Assembly (NCBI GenBank): GCA_919901855.1
Contig: CAKKQC010000007.1
Location: 1 to 64,000, forward strand
From: a bacterium
Lineage (GTDB): Bacteria; Oederibacteriota; CAKKQC01
Length of the DNA: 64,000 nt
Reading direction: 5' to 3'
Part shown: positions 3,468-30,969 of the stretch, piece by piece
Layout: every line of letters starts with the position of its first letter
How positions within the stretch are numbered: position 1 is the stretch's first letter
The notes under the pieces: model-generated
What the model saw: only the letters and a program-made list of their open reading frames with translations
Databases searched by the model: none
Told to the model about the DNA's origin: nothing
Program-made: the position numbers and the translations under genes

Positions 3468-3498
3468 GAAGGCCGCAGGCACGACGCCTGCGGCCTTC
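3468..3498. terminator. Perfect 13-bp hairpin, likely bidirectional terminator
   Basis: GAAGGCCGCAGGC (3468-3480), loop ACGAC, then its exact reverse complement (3486-3498). It lies between the tRNA remnant and the 3' end of the minus-strand hydrolase gene that stops at 3503. No T-run follows on the plus strand. Confidence 0.6.
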
Positions 3499-3502
3499 GC
3501 TG

Positions 3503-5572
3503 TCAGAGGCCCCCGGCGGTCTCGAGCACGATCACGTCGAAGTCATGGAGCTCAGGCAGTCTGACCGTCGTCCGCCCGCCGGACGTGGCGCAGGGGAGCC
3601 GCGTTCCGAGACGCAGTGACCGGGCGCCGGTGGCGGGCCGGTCCATGACGACGGAGAGCTCGATCTCGCGGACCGGCAACGGGGGATGGTGGGCGGTGCC
3701 GAGCTGTCCCGGATGGTTGACGAGCCCGATCCACTGCCACCGGCCTTCGAGCTCCCCGTGCCATGCCACCTCGACGCACGGCGGCGCGTTCGTGGCGAGC
3801 CGCCGGTCCAGCCCGAGGAGATCTTCCAGCGCGGCCACCACGATCCGGGCGAGGCCGGGGTGGGCGAACTTGGCGTACTGGGCGCCCGGTCGCCAGGGCA
3901 GGAAGACCGTGCGTCCCCTCCCCGACCCGTGGAAGACCATTCCCGGCTCGTCCGTGGCGTTGCCGTAGTAGCACTTCTCGGGCGGGCCGAACATGGCGGG
4001 CGGAATCCTGCGAAGGAATGCTTCCGCCCCGGTCACGGGGGTCACCGCCAGGAACCGGTCGTCAAGATGGAGCAGGTCGAGGCCGGCGAATCCGGACAGC
4101 CGGCGCTTGTCCTCATGGCGTATGCGCAGGTAGGAACCGGGCCGGCGTGGGTGGGATTCGCCTGAGGCGGCGACGCCCAGGCTCCGGAGCGCAAGCCCGG
4201 GCCGGGGGTCGCCCGCGGCATCGAGCGTCCCCGTGAGACCCGTGACGAGGAGTCGGCCGCCGCCCTCCGTGTATGCGTCGAGCGCCGCCGCGGCGGGGTC
4301 GGAAAGCCTGCGCGCATCGGGCACGATGACCGCGCGGTACCCCGCGAGCCGGTCCGCGGCGTCGGGCCGGTCCAGGGCGAGGTCCTGGATGACGTCGAAG
4401 AGCACGTGGGCCTCGGTCAGGATGCGGAAGATGCCGCGGTACTCGGCCAGCGCGCCGAGGTCCCCGCTCGCGGCCGGCTTGACGAGGACCGCGTCGGATA
4501 GGGGGGAAGTGCCGGTCAGCCACCGCTCGTGCGCGGCATGGAACGAGAACACCTCGCGCGCGTCCCCGAACGCCAGCCGGTCCTCCTGGCCTTCCAGCGT
4601 GCCGATGACGTACCAGTCCACCCACCCGCCCGCGATGAGGTCGCCGGCGAGCCGCGCGCGCGTGAGGGCGGGCGACACCCCGACGTGCCGGTAGGGGAAG
4701 TCGATGAAATGCACGGCCGTGTTCGACGCGGCGGTGCCGGGCCAGGTCCCGACCGCGGTGCGGCTGTTGTCCGTGGACGCGTAGGTCCATTCCGGCGGGG
4801 ACCGGTCGATGCCCGAGTTCGACTCGGACCGGTACACGTCCACGCCCGCGTCGGCCCAGGTCATGACGGGGAGCCCCTCGTCCCGCTTCCTGATCGCCGC
4901 CCGGATGCGCTGGAAGAGCTCCCGGGTCGTCTCGCGGCGGAACGCGTCGTACCGGCGGAAGACGGGATCGGCGGGGTCTTCCCGCGCGGGGAGTTCGGCG
5001 CCCGCGAACGCCCTGAACCGTCCACGGCAGTTCTCGCACCGGCACAGCCCGTGGTCGACCCCGCTGTAGTCCCAGGCGTGGTATCCGAACATGTTGAAGA
5101 AGACGCCGTCGACCGCGTACCTGGTCAGCGCCTCGTCCAGGATCTCGAGCGACCGCTCCTGCTGGTATGCGCCGTTCAGGCAGACATGGACCTGGCCGTT
5201 GTAGTTGATCTCGCCGCCATCGCCGAGGTAGCGCCACTCCGGGTGCCGCGCCGCGAGCGACTCGTGGACCTTGCTGAAGTCGAACCGGGCGACGAACCGG
5301 ATTCCCTCCCGCCTGGCGCGCGCGAGCACCTTGGCCGTCAGGTCGTCCTTAAGGTGTGGGTTCCGGAAGTGGAACGGGAGGTCCGAGGGGTAGTGCGCGA
5401 CGATGCCGCCGACGTTGAACAGCACGACCTCGGCGTGGAACGATCTGAGTTGCGAGAAATACTCGTCCACGTCCAGCCCGGCGTCGATCTCGCGGAGATT
5501 GGTCTGGATCATGCGGTACGGCTTCGCGAGCCACCACCGCTCTCCGGGCACCGCGCGCCCAATTCCCGCCAT
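3503..5572 (-). CDS. Putative glycoside hydrolase, GHL6-like with beta-galactosidase trimerisation-like region
   Basis: A 689-residue protein. Start ATG 5572 (MAGIGRAVPG) is preferred because the upstream extension of the frame is compositionally odd and overlaps a small plus-strand gene. The N-terminal TIM-barrel-like half has features of hypothetical glycosyl hydrolase 6 proteins (VLFNVGGIVAHYPSDLPF, GVFFNMFGYHAWDY) and a CRCENCRGRF cysteine pair common in this group. The middle (RILTEAHVLFDVI, VIVPDARRLSDPAAAALDAY) resembles the GH42 trimerisation domain, and the rest is beta-rich. No signal peptide is seen, so it is probably cytosolic. The substrate cannot be read from sequence. Confidence 0.65.
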   Translation of the reverse strand: MAGIGRAVPGERWWLAKPYRMIQTNLREIDAGLDVDEYFSQLRSFHAEVVLFNVGGIVAHYPSDLPFHFRNPHLKDDLTAKVLARARREGIRFVARFDFSKVHESLAARHPEWRYLGDGGEINYNGQVHVCLNGAYQQERSLEILDEALTRYAVDGVFFNMFGYHAWDYSGVDHGLCRCENCRGRFRAFAGAELPAREDPADPVFRRYDAFRRETTRELFQRIRAAIRKRDEGLPVMTWADAGVDVYRSESNSGIDRSPPEWTYASTDNSRTAVGTWPGTAASNTAVHFIDFPYRHVGVSPALTRARLAGDLIAGGWVDWYVIGTLEGQEDRLAFGDAREVFSFHAAHERWLTGTSPLSDAVLVKPAASGDLGALAEYRGIFRILTEAHVLFDVIQDLALDRPDAADRLAGYRAVIVPDARRLSDPAAAALDAYTEGGGRLLVTGLTGTLDAAGDPRPGLALRSLGVAASGESHPRRPGSYLRIRHEDKRRLSGFAGLDLLHLDDRFLAVTPVTGAEAFLRRIPPAMFGPPEKCYYGNATDEPGMVFHGSGRGRTVFLPWRPGAQYAKFAHPGLARIVVAALEDLLGLDRRLATNAPPCVEVAWHGELEGRWQWIGLVNHPGQLGTAHHPPLPVREIELSVVMDRPATGARSLRLGTRLPCATSGGRTTVRLPELHDFDVIVLETAGGL

Positions 5573-8993: not shown

Positions 8994-9099
8994 TCCCCGC
9001 CTCCTCGCGTCAACCGCTCGTGGATGGTTGTACCACCGGTCCGGTGCGCCGTCCAAGAGCGGGAGGGGGGGAGGCTGAGGCTTGTGGCACAATGGGGCG

Positions 9100-9849
9100 G
9101 TGACGAGCGAAACGGCGGGCCGACTGGTATCCAGGACGGCGTTCGTGACCGGGGCCGGAAGCGGGATCGGCCGGGGGATCGCGGAGGCCTTCGTCCGCGA
9201 GGGCGCGCGGGTGGCGGTTGCGGACAAGAGCGGCGAGGCCGCCCGCCGGGTGGCCGCCGGGCTGGGGGTATCCGCCGTGGCCGTCGAACTCGACGTCACG
9301 GATTCCGGTTCCGTGCGGCGCGCGATCGACGGGTTCACGGAATCCGCGGGCGGGCTCGACATCCTCGTCAACAACGCCGGGATTGCCTGGGATGCTGCCC
9401 TGACGGAGATGTCCGATGCGCAGTGGGAAGCGGTCCTGCGCGTGAACCTTGACGGCGCGTTCTACTGCACGCGCGCGGCCCTGCGTCACATGGTCGGCCA
9501 GCGCCGGGGCCGGATCGTCAACATGTCCTCGATCGTCGGCACGTACGGCGAGCCGAACCAGGCGAACTACGCGGCGTCGAAGGGCGCCTTGGTCGCGTTC
9601 ACGAAGACGGTCGCGAAGGAGGTGGCGTCTCGGGGCATCACGGCCAACGCGATCGCCCCGGGGTTCATCGTCACGCCGCTCACGGACCAGATGCCGGTTG
9701 CCGTCCGGAAGCACATCGTGGAGCTCGTCCCCCTCGGCCGGGCCGGCCTGCCGGAGGACATCGCGAACGCCGCCGTCTTCCTCGCCTCGGACGCGGCCGG
9801 CTACATCACCGGCCAGGTCCTTCACGTCAACGGGGGGCTCTTGATCTAG
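9100..9849 (+). CDS. Short-chain dehydrogenase/reductase, 3-oxoacyl-ACP reductase-like
   Basis: A 249-residue classical SDR. GTG 9100 (MTSETAGRLV) is chosen because a CACAAT box lies 6 nt before it; an upstream TTG at 9082 would put that box inside the gene. Motifs: TGAGSGIG cofactor loop (17-24), NNAG (91-94), N116, S144, Y157 and K161, giving a complete catalytic tetrad. The end reads NGGLLI as in FabG-like proteins. It probably acts on a sugar or acyl alcohol in the cytosol. Its TAG stop lies inside the first copy of the 71-nt structured element. Confidence 0.85.
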   Translation: MTSETAGRLVSRTAFVTGAGSGIGRGIAEAFVREGARVAVADKSGEAARRVAAGLGVSAVAVELDVTDSGSVRRAIDGFTESAGGLDILVNNAGIAWDAALTEMSDAQWEAVLRVNLDGAFYCTRAALRHMVGQRRGRIVNMSSIVGTYGEPNQANYAASKGALVAFTKTVAKEVASRGITANAIAPGFIVTPLTDQMPVAVRKHIVELVPLGRAGLPEDIANAAVFLASDAAGYITGQVLHVNGGLLI

Positions 9850-9918
9850 AGCCCGTTCCGAAACCCGAACGGGCTCTGGAAGCAGCGGATGGATTGTTGG
9901 TCATTAAATGGCTTCTAG
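9848..9918 (+). repeat. 71-nt structured element, copy 1
   Basis: Layout: hairpin arm AGAGCCCGTTCCG, loop AAAC, arm CCGAACGGGCTCT (one C-C mismatch), then GGAAGC, AGCGGATGGAT, ten variable bases, TAAATG, GCTTCT, AG. GGAAGC can pair with GCTTCT. The element fills the gap between two convergent genes: its first bases overlap the TAG of the SDR gene and its last bases supply the TAG (read on the minus strand) of the quinone-reductase gene. The same layout recurs at 13501-13571 and 30899-30969. Confidence 0.8.
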
Positions 9919-10877
9919 GGGATCAGGACGATCTTGCCCAGGTGGCCCGGGGCCATGACGGCCTCGTGCGCGGCGGGGGCCTGGGCGAGGGGAATCTCGC
10001 GCCCGATCACGGGGACAAGGGTGCCATTCTCCAGACCGATCGCGAGGGCGGCCTGGATCGCGGCCCGGTCCTCGTCGCCGGTCATCCCGAGCATGACCCC
10101 GTGGATCGAAGCCTCGCGCGCCATGAGATCCCGGGGATTCACCTCGACGCACCCGCGGCTGCCGATCACGGCTACCCGGCCCCGGGGCGCGAGGAGTTCC
10201 AGGTCCTTCCCCAGGTTCACGTTGGCCAGCATCTCGAGGATCAGGTCCACGCCGCGGCCATTCGTCGCCGCCATGACGGCTTCACGGAACCCCGCCGCTC
10301 CATGATCGAGAACCTGGTGCGCGCCCTGCGCGGTGGCGAGCTTTCGTCCCGCCTCGGTGCCCGCGGTGCCGAGCACCGTACACCCGGCGCCCTTCGCGAG
10401 CTGTATCGAAGCAATTCCGACACCGCCGCTGGCTCCGTGCACGAGCACGGTCTCGCCCTTCCGGGCCCGCCCGACCTGGAGGAGGGCGTGGTACGCGGTC
10501 ATGAACGGCACGCCGAGGGCGGCGCCCTGCGCGAACGAGACGCGCGCGGGCAGGGGATGGACGTCCGCCTCCCGGCACAGGGCGCGCTCCGCGTAGGTGC
10601 CCGAAAGGCTGCCCGACGTCCAGACCCGGTCGCCGGGCTTAACGCCCGTGACCCCGGCGCCGACGGCCTCCACCACGCCCCCGGCGTCCCCGCCCGGCGT
10701 GTACGGCAGGGCGGGCTTGCGGGCGTACGAGCCGGATCGGATGTAGGTCTCGACCGGGTTCACCCCCACGGCCTTGACCGCGACGACGACCTGGCCGGCA
10801 CCGGCGACCGGGTCGGCGGCGTCCTCGATCTTAAGCACCTCGGGCGCGCCAAAAGCCCGCACGACGACGGCCTTCAT
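9915..10877 (-). CDS. NADPH:quinone reductase-like MDR oxidoreductase
   Basis: A 320-residue zinc-free medium-chain reductase of the quinone oxidoreductase (zeta-crystallin) group. The N-terminal part has NPVETYIRSGSYA and LPYTPGGDAGGVVEAVG; the cofactor segment is VLVHGASGGVGIASIQLAK with the AxxGxxG-type turn; QVLDH follows. GGAGGT precedes ATG 10877 with good spacing. It would transfer hydride from NADPH to quinones or enals in the cytosol. Its stop codon is provided by the end of the 71-nt element. Confidence 0.85.
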   Translation of the reverse strand: MKAVVVRAFGAPEVLKIEDAADPVAGAGQVVVAVKAVGVNPVETYIRSGSYARKPALPYTPGGDAGGVVEAVGAGVTGVKPGDRVWTSGSLSGTYAERALCREADVHPLPARVSFAQGAALGVPFMTAYHALLQVGRARKGETVLVHGASGGVGIASIQLAKGAGCTVLGTAGTEAGRKLATAQGAHQVLDHGAAGFREAVMAATNGRGVDLILEMLANVNLGKDLELLAPRGRVAVIGSRGCVEVNPRDLMAREASIHGVMLGMTGDEDRAAIQAALAIGLENGTLVPVIGREIPLAQAPAAHEAVMAPGHLGKIVLIP

Positions 10878-10971: not shown

Positions 10972-13434
10972 TCATGCGTACGACGCGTACAGGTGGGCGA
11001 GCCGGAGCCCCGCCTTCACCTTCGCGGCCGTGTGGCCCGAGCGACGCGGGCACGTGACCGTCCGGGACTCCCCGGCGGGGAGATCGAACCAGTTGTCGGA
11101 CCAGACGACATCCCGCTCCGCGAGCGAGAGGCGCACGAACCGCGCGAGCGACTTCGCCTTCACCGTCACGGCCCACTGGTCGCCGGCGGGCCGGACCTTC
11201 GCCGTGAGCCCGGGGTCGGACAGCTTCAGATGCTTGATGGGCACGAACCCGACGACACCGGACGAGAGCCGCCGGCCGTTCGCCCGGAGCTCGTAGACGC
11301 AGACGAGGTCGCGCCGGTCCCGGCCGCCCATGACCTTCGCGAAGTCGAGATCCACCACACGGGTGTCCGCCAGGGGGCGCGCGGACACCCTCCGGCTTCC
11401 CCGGGCCAGCCGCCGGCCCGCGACCGTCTCGAGCCGCCACCGGACCTCGCCGCGGAACGGCGCTATGCCGTCGTTCGTGACGTGGAGCCCGACCCTGACG
11501 CCCGATTCCTCCGCCGACAGCAGGACCGGCTCGAAGAACCGCTTCTCGGAGTAGTGCAGGGCCTTCCAGCGCCCGTAATAGTCGAGGCTCGCCCACGAGA
11601 CCACGGGCCAGCAGTCGTTCAACTGCCAGACGATCGCCCCGTTGCACCGGCCCCGGTGCCGGCGCCAGTGCTCGACGCCGTACCGCATGGCCTCGGCCTG
11701 GAGAAGCTGGGAGGTGTAGACCAGCGAGGGGAAGTCCTTCGGAATCCGGAAGGTCTCGCAGAGGTAGTGCATGATGATCTGGTTGCCCGACCAGTTCTTC
11801 TGGTGGCTCTCCATGAGCCACGAGGTCATGTTCCACTCAGGCCTGGGGGCGAACGACGCGACCGTCTTGAGGTCCGGCAGGGACTGGAACCCGAACTCGC
11901 TCATGAACCGGTGGAAGTGCTGCCGGTACTCGGTGAACGGCCGGCGCCCGTGCCAAACGGACCAGTCGTGGCCGTCGCCCTTCGCCTGTCCGCCCGGGTC
12001 CTTGAAGCCGCCGCCCGACGAGGGCGAGCTGGGCCAGTACGTCGTGTCCGGGTCCTCGGCCTTGACCCACGCCGGGAGCAGATGATGGAACATGCGGTCG
12101 TAGACGCGCATGGCGGCCGCGGGCGCGCGCTTCTTCCAGCCCCACTCGGCCCAACCGGATTCCATCTCGTTGTTGCCGCACCAGAGCGCGAGGCACGCGC
12201 GGTGGCGCAGCCGCCGGATCGCCTCGACGGCCTCCCCGTGGAAGTTGTCCACGAACTCGGCGTGGCCGGGGTAGCGCATGCACGCGAACATGAAGTCCTG
12301 CCACACGAGCAGGCCCAGCTCGTCGCAGAGGTCGTAGAAGTCCTCGTGCTCATAGAACCCGCCGCCCCAGACCCGGACCATGTTCATGTTGGCGGCCGCC
12401 GCGCTTCCCAGCAGGCCGGCGTACCGTTCCCGGGTCATCCGGGTGGGGAAGGAGTCCGCCGGGATCCAGTCCGCGCCCTTGGCGAAAATGGGCACGCCGT
12501 TCACGACGAACGTGAACGACTCGCCCCACCGATCGCGCTTGCGCTCGAGCTCGATGGTTCTCAGTCCGAGCTTCTTGGCGTCGAGGTCCAGGACTTCCCC
12601 GTGCGCGCCCAGGAGCTCGACGCACAGCGAGTACAGGGGCTGGGCGCCGAGGCCATTGGGCCACCACAGCGAAGGGCGGTCGACGACGAGGGCCACCGAA
12701 GCTTCGTCGCCGCGCTCCAGGGGCACGACGCGGGTCACGGAGTACTCGCCGGGCCCATTCAACGAGATCCTGGCGCGAAGCGCGCCTGGCCGCCACCGCT
12801 CGGCGGTGACGCGGACGCTGACCGTGGCCCTCGCCTTCGTCGTGGACTGCCGTAGGTGCACATCGGCCAGCCGGGCCGTGTCCCGGCCCGCGAGCCGGAT
12901 GCTCCGCCAGATGCCGGTCGGCGGGAGCTGGGGTCCCCAGTCCCACCCGTAGTGGCATCCGGCCTTGCGGATCAGGGAGCCGCCCGGCACGGAGTGCGGG
13001 TCCCCGCCCGCGAGCTTCTCCGCCGCGTTCCGGGGCTTCTCGATGACGGGCGAGGTGAAGGCCACCCGGATCGTGTTGCGGCCCGGCCGAAGCAGGCGCT
13101 TGACCTCGAACCGGTGCGGCCGGAGCATGTTCGCGGACCGGCCGGCGAGGCGGCCGTTGACGGTCACGACGGCGAGCGTGTCCAGCCCCGCGCACTCGAG
13201 CCAGACGGTGTCGCGGGCGAGCAGCGCCGAGGCCACGTCGAAGCCGCGCTCGTATTCCCAGCCCGCGCGGAACACCCAGGTCACCTGGCGCTCGTGGTCG
13301 AGCGTGAAGGGGTCCGGGATCTTCCCCAGCGCGAGCAGGTCGGTGAAGTTGGAGCCCGGAACGCGGGCCGGAAGCCAGCCGCGGTCCTTGGCCTTGCGGA
13401 AGCGCCAGGCGCCGTCGAGGGTGATGGTCGTCAT
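10972..13434 (-). CDS. Beta-mannosidase, GH2 family
   Basis: An 820-residue enzyme that should release terminal beta-mannose from manno-oligosaccharides. ATG 13434 (MTTITLDGAWRF) is chosen because GATAAT lies 7 nt before it. The domains follow beta-mannosidases: sugar-binding jelly roll (VARVPGSNFTDLLALG, TVWLECAGLDTLA), Ig-like sandwich (CHYGWDWGPQLPPTGIWR), then a TIM barrel with VRVWGGGFYE and acid/base E423 in CGNNEMESG. The nucleophile is E513 in MSEFGFQS, with C-terminal beta domains after it. No signal peptide is visible, so it likely acts on imported oligomers. The second 71-nt element lies upstream. Confidence 0.9.
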   Translation of the reverse strand: MTTITLDGAWRFRKAKDRGWLPARVPGSNFTDLLALGKIPDPFTLDHERQVTWVFRAGWEYERGFDVASALLARDTVWLECAGLDTLAVVTVNGRLAGRSANMLRPHRFEVKRLLRPGRNTIRVAFTSPVIEKPRNAAEKLAGGDPHSVPGGSLIRKAGCHYGWDWGPQLPPTGIWRSIRLAGRDTARLADVHLRQSTTKARATVSVRVTAERWRPGALRARISLNGPGEYSVTRVVPLERGDEASVALVVDRPSLWWPNGLGAQPLYSLCVELLGAHGEVLDLDAKKLGLRTIELERKRDRWGESFTFVVNGVPIFAKGADWIPADSFPTRMTRERYAGLLGSAAAANMNMVRVWGGGFYEHEDFYDLCDELGLLVWQDFMFACMRYPGHAEFVDNFHGEAVEAIRRLRHRACLALWCGNNEMESGWAEWGWKKRAPAAAMRVYDRMFHHLLPAWVKAEDPDTTYWPSSPSSGGGFKDPGGQAKGDGHDWSVWHGRRPFTEYRQHFHRFMSEFGFQSLPDLKTVASFAPRPEWNMTSWLMESHQKNWSGNQIIMHYLCETFRIPKDFPSLVYTSQLLQAEAMRYGVEHWRRHRGRCNGAIVWQLNDCWPVVSWASLDYYGRWKALHYSEKRFFEPVLLSAEESGVRVGLHVTNDGIAPFRGEVRWRLETVAGRRLARGSRRVSARPLADTRVVDLDFAKVMGGRDRRDLVCVYELRANGRRLSSGVVGFVPIKHLKLSDPGLTAKVRPAGDQWAVTVKAKSLARFVRLSLAERDVVWSDNWFDLPAGESRTVTCPRRSGHTAAKVKAGLRLAHLYASYA

Positions 13435-13441
13435 GGCGGGC

Positions 13442-13447
13442 ATTATC
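13442..13447 (-). promoter_or_regulatory. Extended -10 box of the beta-mannosidase gene
   Basis: Read on the minus strand: TGC then GATAAT, 7 nt before ATG 13434. This gives a leaderless transcript and decides the start codon. Confidence 0.5.
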
Positions 13448-13500
13448 GCACGGCCCGCCGGGGGTCGTGCCCGGCGGTCAGGGACGGCGCCGAGTCTGCC

Positions 13501-13571
13501 AGAGGTCGTTGCGGAACCGCAACGACCTCTGCAGGCAGTGGATGGATTTCAGGATATACAATGGCCTGTAG
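13501..13571 (+). repeat. 71-nt structured element, copy 2
   Basis: Arm AGAGGTCGTTGCG (13501-13513), loop GAAC, perfect opposite arm to 13530, then GCAGGC, AGTGGATGGAT, ten variable bases, ACAATG, GCCTGT, AG. Compared with copies 1 and 3, the GGAAGC/GCTTCT pairing has become GCAGGC/GCCTGT, with both sides changed so that pairing is kept. It lies between the divergent beta-mannosidase and beta-galactosidase-like genes. Confidence 0.85.
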
Positions 13572-13603
13572 ACTCCATGATCAGCGGGCCCCGAGGAGGC
13601 ACC

Positions 13604-30179: not shown

Positions 30180-30189
30180 GGCGGCGGTG

Positions 30190-30900
30190 GTGAACGCCGT
30201 CGTCGTCTCCGGCGCCTTCGACGACATGCGGTCCCGGCACATCCGGCTCCTCCATGAGGCCTCCAAGCGGGGGCCGGTGCACGTCCACCTGTGGTCCGAC
30301 GCGGCCGTACGCGAGGCCGCGGGCGCCGAGCCCCGGTTCCCCCAGCCGGAGCGCGAATACCTTGTTTCGGCCATCCGGTACGTGGACCGGGTGACGGTCA
30401 CGGACCGTCCCGAGCCGGACGCGACGGGGATCGGGGATGCCGCCCTCGCGGGGTTCGAGCTCCCGGATCTCCCCGCGGCCCCCGCGTCGCGGAAGACGGT
30501 CGTGGTCACCGGCTGTTACGACTGGTTCCACTCCGGCCACGTCGCGTTCTTCGAGGAAGTCTCGCGGATCGGGGAGCTCACGGTCGTCGTCGGTCACGAC
30601 GCCACGATCACGCTCCTGAAAGGGCCGGGCCACCCCATGTTCCCGCAGGCCGAGCGCGCGTACATGGTCGCCGCGATCCGGTTCGTGTCCCGGGTCCTGA
30701 TCTCGTCGGGGATGGGCTGGCTGGACGCGGCGCCCGAGATCGAGAGGATCAAGCCGGAAATCTACGCCGTCAACGAGGACGGCGACCGTCCCGAGAAGCG
30801 CGAGTTCTGCGCGACGCGCGGGATCGAGTACCGGGTCCTGAAGCGCGTGCCCCACGCGGGCCTGCCGAGGCGCGAATCCACCCGGCTCAGGGGTTTCTAG
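30190..30900 (+). CDS. Tandem cytidylyltransferase-like protein
   Basis: A 236-residue protein (GTG 30190; GTG 30187 is also possible) made of two repeats of the nucleotidyltransferase fold. The second (residues ~102-225) has a proper HSGH motif (114-117) in TGCYDWFHSGHVAFFEEV. The first (residues 1-75) aligns as SGAFDDMRSRHIRLLHEA, so its histidine signature is degenerate. PQPEREYLVSAIRYVDRV and PQAERAYMVAAIRFVSRV are the matching second motifs. It probably joins CTP (or ATP) to a sugar or polyol phosphate, with one active and one structural half. It starts 10 nt after the kinase-like gene. Confidence 0.75.
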   Translation: MNAVVVSGAFDDMRSRHIRLLHEASKRGPVHVHLWSDAAVREAAGAEPRFPQPEREYLVSAIRYVDRVTVTDRPEPDATGIGDAALAGFELPDLPAAPASRKTVVVTGCYDWFHSGHVAFFEEVSRIGELTVVVGHDATITLLKGPGHPMFPQAERAYMVAAIRFVSRVLISSGMGWLDAAPEIERIKPEIYAVNEDGDRPEKREFCATRGIEYRVLKRVPHAGLPRRESTRLRGF

Positions 30901-30969
30901 AGGCCGTTGCGCAACCGCAACGGCCTCTGGAAGCAGCGGATGGATCTTGGGTTCTGCAATGGCTTCTAG
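30899..30969 (+). repeat. 71-nt structured element, copy 3
   Basis: Arm AGAGGCCGTTGCG (30899-30911), loop CAAC, perfect opposite arm to 30928, then GGAAGC, AGCGGATGGAT, ten variable bases, GCAATG, GCTTCT, AG. Its first two bases are part of the TAG stop of the cytidylyltransferase gene, as in copy 1. It lies between two convergent transcription units. Confidence 0.85.

Follow-up and report, generated by a model that had tools for sequence, protein, structure and literature searches.

The genome from which the 64,000-nt window (the whole stretch of DNA analysed here) is derived harbors a family of short, interspersed repeats, each composed of two consecutive hairpins that covary on a single strand. 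The repeats are insertions, three sites of which are also preserved in their empty form; they enter directly 3' of a TA and are strongly enriched at the stop codons of genes. The favoured reading, to which a probability of about 0.6 is assigned, is that of a REP-like, non-autonomous repeat whose movement, in the form of single-stranded DNA, would be carried out by a RAYT-type Y1/HUH enzyme. It is preferred because the ends of the repeat exhibit no inverted coupling, because neither an IS630-type enzyme nor an integron integrase scores above its cut-off in the genome, and because both hairpins covary on one strand. An earlier, sequence-only reading of the window saw neither the mobile insertion with its empty sites nor the location of most dispersed copies at stop codons.

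Three copies of 71 nt in the same orientation had been described in the window, at 9848-9918, 13501-13571 and 30899-30969, and all three were recovered (Table 1). When aligned, they begin with N-T-A-R (CCAG, not NTAR, in copy 2) and finish with S-T-A-R; in between lie a hairpin of 13 pairs capped by an NAAC loop and a second stem of 6 pairs, together with the core AGYGGATGGAT and AATG. Pairing of the first stem is indeed retained despite its base changes, perfectly in copies 2 and 3 and with one mismatch among the 13 pairs of copy 1, and the second stem changes on both sides, from GGAAGC/GCTTCT in copies 1 and 3 to GCAGGC/GCCTGT in copy 2. Copy 1 lies between two convergent genes, both stop codons of which are formed at its ends, and the CTAG that holds it serves as the stop for both. 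The upstream SDR gene was overlooked by the simple gene caller and was added from a separate gene reading; its profile match reaches residue 255 of 255. Copy 2 is located in the gap between divergent genes, one at 10972-13443 on the reverse strand and a predicted one starting at 13577 on the forward strand. Another perfect 13-bp hairpin (GAAGGCCGCAGGC), at 3468-3503 of the window, is outside the double-hairpin family.

Table 1. Copies of the repeat in the window, adjoining genes that end at them, and Y1/RAYT-like transposase genes of the genome.
Feature	Position	Strand	Description
Copy 1	9846..9917	+	bounded by CTA on the left (target side) and CTA on the right (element end)
Copy 1, hairpin 1	9848..9877	+	arms 9848-9860 / 9865-9877, loop AAAC, one C/C mismatch
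Copy 1, hairpin 2	9878..9916	+	6-bp stem 9878-9883 / 9911-9916
Copy 1, hairpin 2 interior	9884-9894; 9908-9910		core AGCGGATGGAT (9884-9894); ATG (9908-9910)
Gene 5' of copy 1	9082..9849	+	FabG-like SDR; natural end meets TAG at the element's left end
Convergent gene of copy 1	9915..10877	-	zinc-type/quinone oxidoreductase-like; stop 9915-9917 formed by right CTA
Copy 2	13499..13570	+	left end degenerate NTAR type (CCAG), right end GTAG
Copy 2, hairpin 1	13501..13530	+	arms 13501-13513 / 13518-13530, loop GAAC
Copy 2, hairpin 2	13531..13569	+	stem 13531-13536 / 13564-13569, core AGTGGATGGAT 13537-13547
Copy 3	30897..30968	+	left CTAG = stop codon of gene 30187-30900, right CTAG
Copy 3, hairpin 1	30899..30928	+	arms 30899-30911 / 30916-30928, loop CAAC
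Copy 3, hairpin 2	30929..30967	+	stem 30929-30934 / 30962-30967, core AGCGGATGGAT 30935-30945
Gene 5' of copy 3	30187..30900	+	cytidylyltransferase-like domain; ends at the element's left TAG
Four Y1/RAYT-like transposase genes	L050, L051, L052, L075 (contigs C21, C23, C60, C6)		~340 aa

A search of the genome for the core pattern yielded five copies, from which a covariance model (R1) was built; this model detected about 35 copies in the 4.68-Mb genome (best E 7e-20), and a second model (R2), derived from 28 copies, returned essentially the same set. The copies are spread over many contigs in both orientations, and most are solitary, between housekeeping genes. Tandem copies occur in direct order only, with no inverted pairs: contig C40 carries two head-to-tail copies with a CTAA tag in common and a spacing of 69, and clustered copies, including a three-copy array, reside in toxin-antitoxin-like gene islands on contigs C71, C64 and C73. 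The fixed length and invariant core that had been proposed from the window are not general, as the spacing of the end tags ranges from 43 to 83 nt (mostly 66-72 nt), and both GGATGGAT and AATGG vary in other copies. The second stem and the segment from the core to RTG vary across the family as well. The former also occurs as GCAAGC/GCTTGT, GCGAGC/GCTCGT, GGCGGC/GCCGCT and GGACGC/GCGTCC, in addition to the two variants of the window, and the latter is of variable length, sometimes with a small internal hairpin. One copy (L025:1501-1589) has a longer apical part containing an extra hairpin (CTGCGGAGTTCCTCCGCAG).

None of the dinucleotide-shuffled sequences folds as well as the window copies (z -3.3, -5.2 and -4.8 for copies 1 to 3). 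In the 28-copy alignment, which was fitted to the covariance model and therefore leans to its structure, 95.2% of the pair cells are paired (shuffles, 83%; slid controls, 35-42%), double changes occur in 15 of the 19 pairs, and the covariation score is 0.34 compared to 0.02-0.10 with slid partners. The eight strongest background-corrected column couplings are all pairs of the two stems, and RNAalifold, unprompted, returns the same two helices. The same structural picture emerges from a five-copy MAFFT alignment that was not fitted to the model. The covariation first noted in three copies is strengthened by the larger set, in which the suggested constraint on a folded single strand persists. 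The arms of a hairpin can also be kept matched without selection, through quasipalindrome correction by template switching, yet this process would not easily explain the second stem, whose arms are usually ~27 nt apart.

The fold has no counterpart in Rfam at the gathering score, and a permissive scan of copy 1 gave chance matches only. A riboswitch or ribozyme was rejected on this ground and in view of the scattered single copies without a common gene context. An intrinsic terminator, consisting of a GC hairpin and a T-run, was likewise discarded, as no T-run is present at copies 1 and 3 and copy 2 lies between divergent genes, and so was a translational start module, in which GGATGGAT would be the ribosome site and the conserved NTG the start, since the NTG is in the frame of the next gene in 4 of 11 cases. 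The earlier failure to match the element to a named family is borne out with respect to Rfam, attC and terminators, but REP/BIME elements had been excluded too quickly, REP-type repeats being the closest kind.

The distribution of the family is narrow. The covariance search found its additional copies inside one genome only: among 45 genomes of the phylum, no copy was detected in the other 44, including the sole other member of the taxonomic family. The lack of relatives that the earlier reading had named as a refutation thus applies by half, related copies being confined to the one genome. A scan of 84,980 GTDB species genomes, in which the exact core was required, gave five matches, about the chance level, with scores not exceeding 14 bits (R1) and 17.5 bits (R2); one viral contig match attained 20.5 bits. 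Weak matches in two genomes (G002 and G047) were rejected, for the sequence around them appears to be coding, and a looser pattern turned up no further copy of their kind there. Given the absence of copies from the other phylum genomes and the chance level of the GTDB matches, the family is, within the sampled genomes, confined to one species or its close relatives.

The flanks of the clustered copies, compared with all of the genome stretches examined, reveal the insertions. On contig C73, a region at about 6047-6290 of L043 shows three of the insertion sites in their unoccupied state; the occupied versions are on contigs C71 and C64, where the element entered after GTA, TTA and GTA. At the first site, GTCAGACCGTA|CGCGCC is empty and GTCAGACCGTA-element-CTTCTAAT|CGCGCC is filled (L041:9240-9315). 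The second reads CATACTTA|ACAAAC when empty and CATACTTA, three tandem copies and GTAAT|ACAAAT when filled (L042). The third reads ACCTTGAACACAACG when empty and ACCTTGTA-element-TTTGTA|GACAACG when filled (L041:9421-9486); the empty copy has GA, so the TA of this site is read from the filled copies. From this comparison, the element starts with its purine right after a pre-existing TA and ends in STA, and TA is found at both ends of nearly all copies. In two of the three comparisons an extra AT is unexplained. Because the element itself ends in TA, a TA duplication and an insertion without duplication read alike at these sites and cannot be told apart. Excision would read the same as insertion, the unit being mobile either way, and it is almost certain that the repeat itself, which carries no gene, is mobile. 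At most of the dispersed sites, the form prior to insertion is deduced from the filled site.

In 14 of the 21 dispersed copies, the left TAR is the exact TAA or TAG stop of a co-oriented gene upstream, and a fifteenth such copy, on contig C27, is devoid of hairpin 1. In the window, stops of this kind account for 10% of non-coding TA, 24% of TA|R and 31% of STA|R sites, and the enrichment over these expectations (10-31%) is significant at P 5e-10 to 7e-4, according to the target model. The stops at the tested insertions are natural gene ends, with profile matches that stop no more than a few residues short of the C-terminus in FabG, KdsD, TatD, aldo/keto reductase and GFO/IDH proteins. In nearly every dispersed copy a purine follows the right STA, as would be the case were this the final base of the original stop, pushed aside by the insertion. 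Entry after TA by an element with a purine as its first base re-creates TAG or TAA, such that the protein is unchanged by the insertion.

The same location may suggest a functional RNA element of 3'-UTRs, of whatever origin, held in place by site-wise selection for a role in translation termination, mRNA stability or operon tuning. Hairpin 1 begins at the stop codon, in sense orientation, in two thirds of the dispersed copies, and pairing is retained in nearly all copies. The proximity of REPs to stop codons is well documented (PMC12306157), and ribosome stalling has been reported for E. coli REPs located <=15 nt from a stop codon, in work cited in the same article. Such a role is nevertheless quite unlikely to account for the family, as copies are also found between divergent genes and in toxin-antitoxin islands without a nearby gene end, profile matches of the upstream proteins reveal no common function, the two stop-codon copies of the window have no T-run terminator signal, the core NTG is in frame at the chance level (4/11), and the family is absent from relatives. 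Effects on translation or mRNA decay, like those reported for the E. coli REPs, may have been acquired later by the stop-codon copies.

The TA that flanks nearly all copies at both ends, together with a weak likeness of the ends themselves (GAGGCCGT versus GAAGCCAT), calls for consideration of a TA-target MITE, moved via terminal inverted repeats by a DDE transposase (IS630/Tc1-mariner or similar). MITEs of this type (Correia/NEMIS, RUP, ERIC and Nezha) are short, intergenic and folding, with TA at both ends, like the repeat; in contrast to them, the repeat has no inverted repeat that is conserved within copies, and the genome has no intact IS630-type enzyme. The ends, taken as inverted repeats, match at 4.58 of 8 within the same copy and at 4.59 across copies (permutation P 0.59); it is the pairing within the individual hairpins that persists. 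Since the likeness is no better within than between copies, a transposase that reads terminal inverted repeats is unlikely. In a search for the IS630 type, the sole DDE_3 trace of the genome was a broken fragment below the cut-off, and the strongly one-sided stop-codon position also argues against this origin.

Movement as RNA, by reverse transcription through a group II intron or another reverse transcriptase in trans, would agree with the sense orientation of the stop-codon insertions, and the genome codes for two reverse transcriptases. Neither gene has an adjoining repeat copy, and a DNA target would accord with NTAR as the entry site and with the way in which tandem copies join at the tag of the element itself, which makes this route very improbable. 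One of the two (L073, C6:191823-192464 and flanks) is an intact reverse transcriptase in a group II intron with Rfam matches to D1-D4 and domain V, situated 15 kb from one repeat copy; the second, divergent one (L074, C7:144925-145422, on the contig of the window) is an RVT_1 protein in an open frame of 705 aa.

The repeat is thus a lineage-specific, geneless unit of ~70 bp with two consecutive hairpins on one strand, which inserts right after TA, with a preference for NTA|R and above all for natural TAA/TAG stop codons, where the stop is restored because the first base of the repeat is a purine. Its right end offers a new STA|R, at which further copies can insert, whereby tandem arrays form. 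In the mechanism proposed for the favoured reading, the hairpins would be recognised as single-stranded DNA, in trans, by an IS200/RAYT-type Y1/HUH transposase, enzymes for which background is given in PMC6006769 and PMC2817692. Hairpins covarying on a single strand, an entry point just 3' of a short target and one-sidedness at stops are what such an enzyme would be expected to produce. All four Y1/RAYT-like genes of the genome score below the curated REP-transposase cut-off, and three have clear GGGGAC-type inverted ends of their own. The repeat was not found within ~1.5 kb of any of them (for the gene on C21, only ~100-170 contig bases are available upstream); since no RAYT-like gene is flanked by the repeat, the mobiliser is one that we only infer. 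Two of the Y1 elements start right after the stop of the neighbouring gene (CACTGA|GGGGACAC for L052 and TAGTAG|GGGGGACG for L075), which hints at a habit in common with the repeat. No autonomous parent copy was found, and solo hairpin-2 sites on C75 and C27 were dismissed as a lead to one, as no partner hairpin was detected upstream of them.

Among known systems, REPs are GTAG-tagged palindromes of 20-40 bp, often near gene 3' ends, which are spread in trans by RAYTs (PMC2817692, Nunvar 2010; PMC3733652, Di Nocera 2013). The repeat resembles them as a single-strand hairpin repeated through one genome, short, non-coding, interspersed, intergenic, near gene 3' ends and lineage-restricted, with RAYT-like genes in the same genome and, more loosely, a GTAG/NTAR tag at the hairpin foot. 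It differs from them in its ~70-bp unit (mostly 62-72 nt) of two different hairpins in direct order, where REPs form one palindrome or an inverted pair, in its ~35 copies rather than hundreds, and in a tag that varies (GTAG, CTAG, TTAG, GTAA) and is present at both ends; the first base of the tag is most commonly G (16/37), with C and T also common, and the NTA is already in the empty target. Two features of GTAG REPs, the flanked RAYT and the unit of a single palindrome or inverted pair, are thus lacking, and the tag agrees loosely. The ends of IS200/IS605 elements share with the repeat two non-identical hairpins, which in the repeat covary on one strand, entry just 3' of a short target and no clear target duplication; in the repeat, by contrast, the hairpins do not enclose a transposase, a guide 5' of the hairpin foot could not be identified, and a full-length parent did not come to light. 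TIRYT/TIRtron elements have GGGGWSAS ends (PMC3733652), and the Y1 genes of the present genome are of the same type, including the two whose elements start after stops, but their ends have no sequence in common with the repeat. The repeat is accordingly classed among short non-autonomous hairpin repeats, as a new lineage-restricted variant and not as a GTAG REP. Targeted literature searches gave, among their top results, no matching description of mobile repeats with the stop codon itself as their target. A more tentative view, and a rather doubtful one, is that the repeat represents a new class of mobile element, minimal and single-stranded, in which the two dissimilar hairpins would be the whole transposon and the stop codon the target that it cuts and regenerates, with an orphan Y1/HUH enzyme that reads foreign hairpins as its possible mover.

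The spread of REP-type repeats is still poorly understood, and the family offers exact empty and filled sites within one genome, as well as a two-hairpin unit with base-paired ends. It also provides a rule for harmless insertion, namely to enter a stop codon after TA and to supply the purine that restores it, and a ready set of substrates on which orphan RAYT-like enzymes could be tried as movers of repeats in trans. Furthermore, covariation in the style of RNA within one genome can flag a mobile DNA hairpin rather than a functional RNA.

Clusters of copies in the same orientation in the toxin-antitoxin-rich islands of C71 and C73 could suggest an integron or cassette system with attC-like recombination sites. 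This origin is extremely improbable, as all tyrosine recombinases fall short of the integron-integrase cut-off (265 bits; the best, at 134, is a XerD protein), the RYYYAAC...GTTRRRY order is absent as read from the sequence, and the copies are mostly single, among housekeeping genes. The islands (L041 on C71, L042 on C64 and L043 on C73) contain, by eye, genes for DUF4143-like ATPases and HEPN/MNT-like, PIN-like and HicB-like proteins, and also carry several solo repeat families (AATCTTAAAATCTGAAGCGCGTCCCC, GGGCCATACTTAACAAATTAACATTC and GGGGAGCTACGCAACTACGCAA). Three of their copies (L043 at 10829 and 13123, L041 at 9240) have the left flank of one insertion site and the right flank of another, as if recombination between copies had deleted the intervening DNA.
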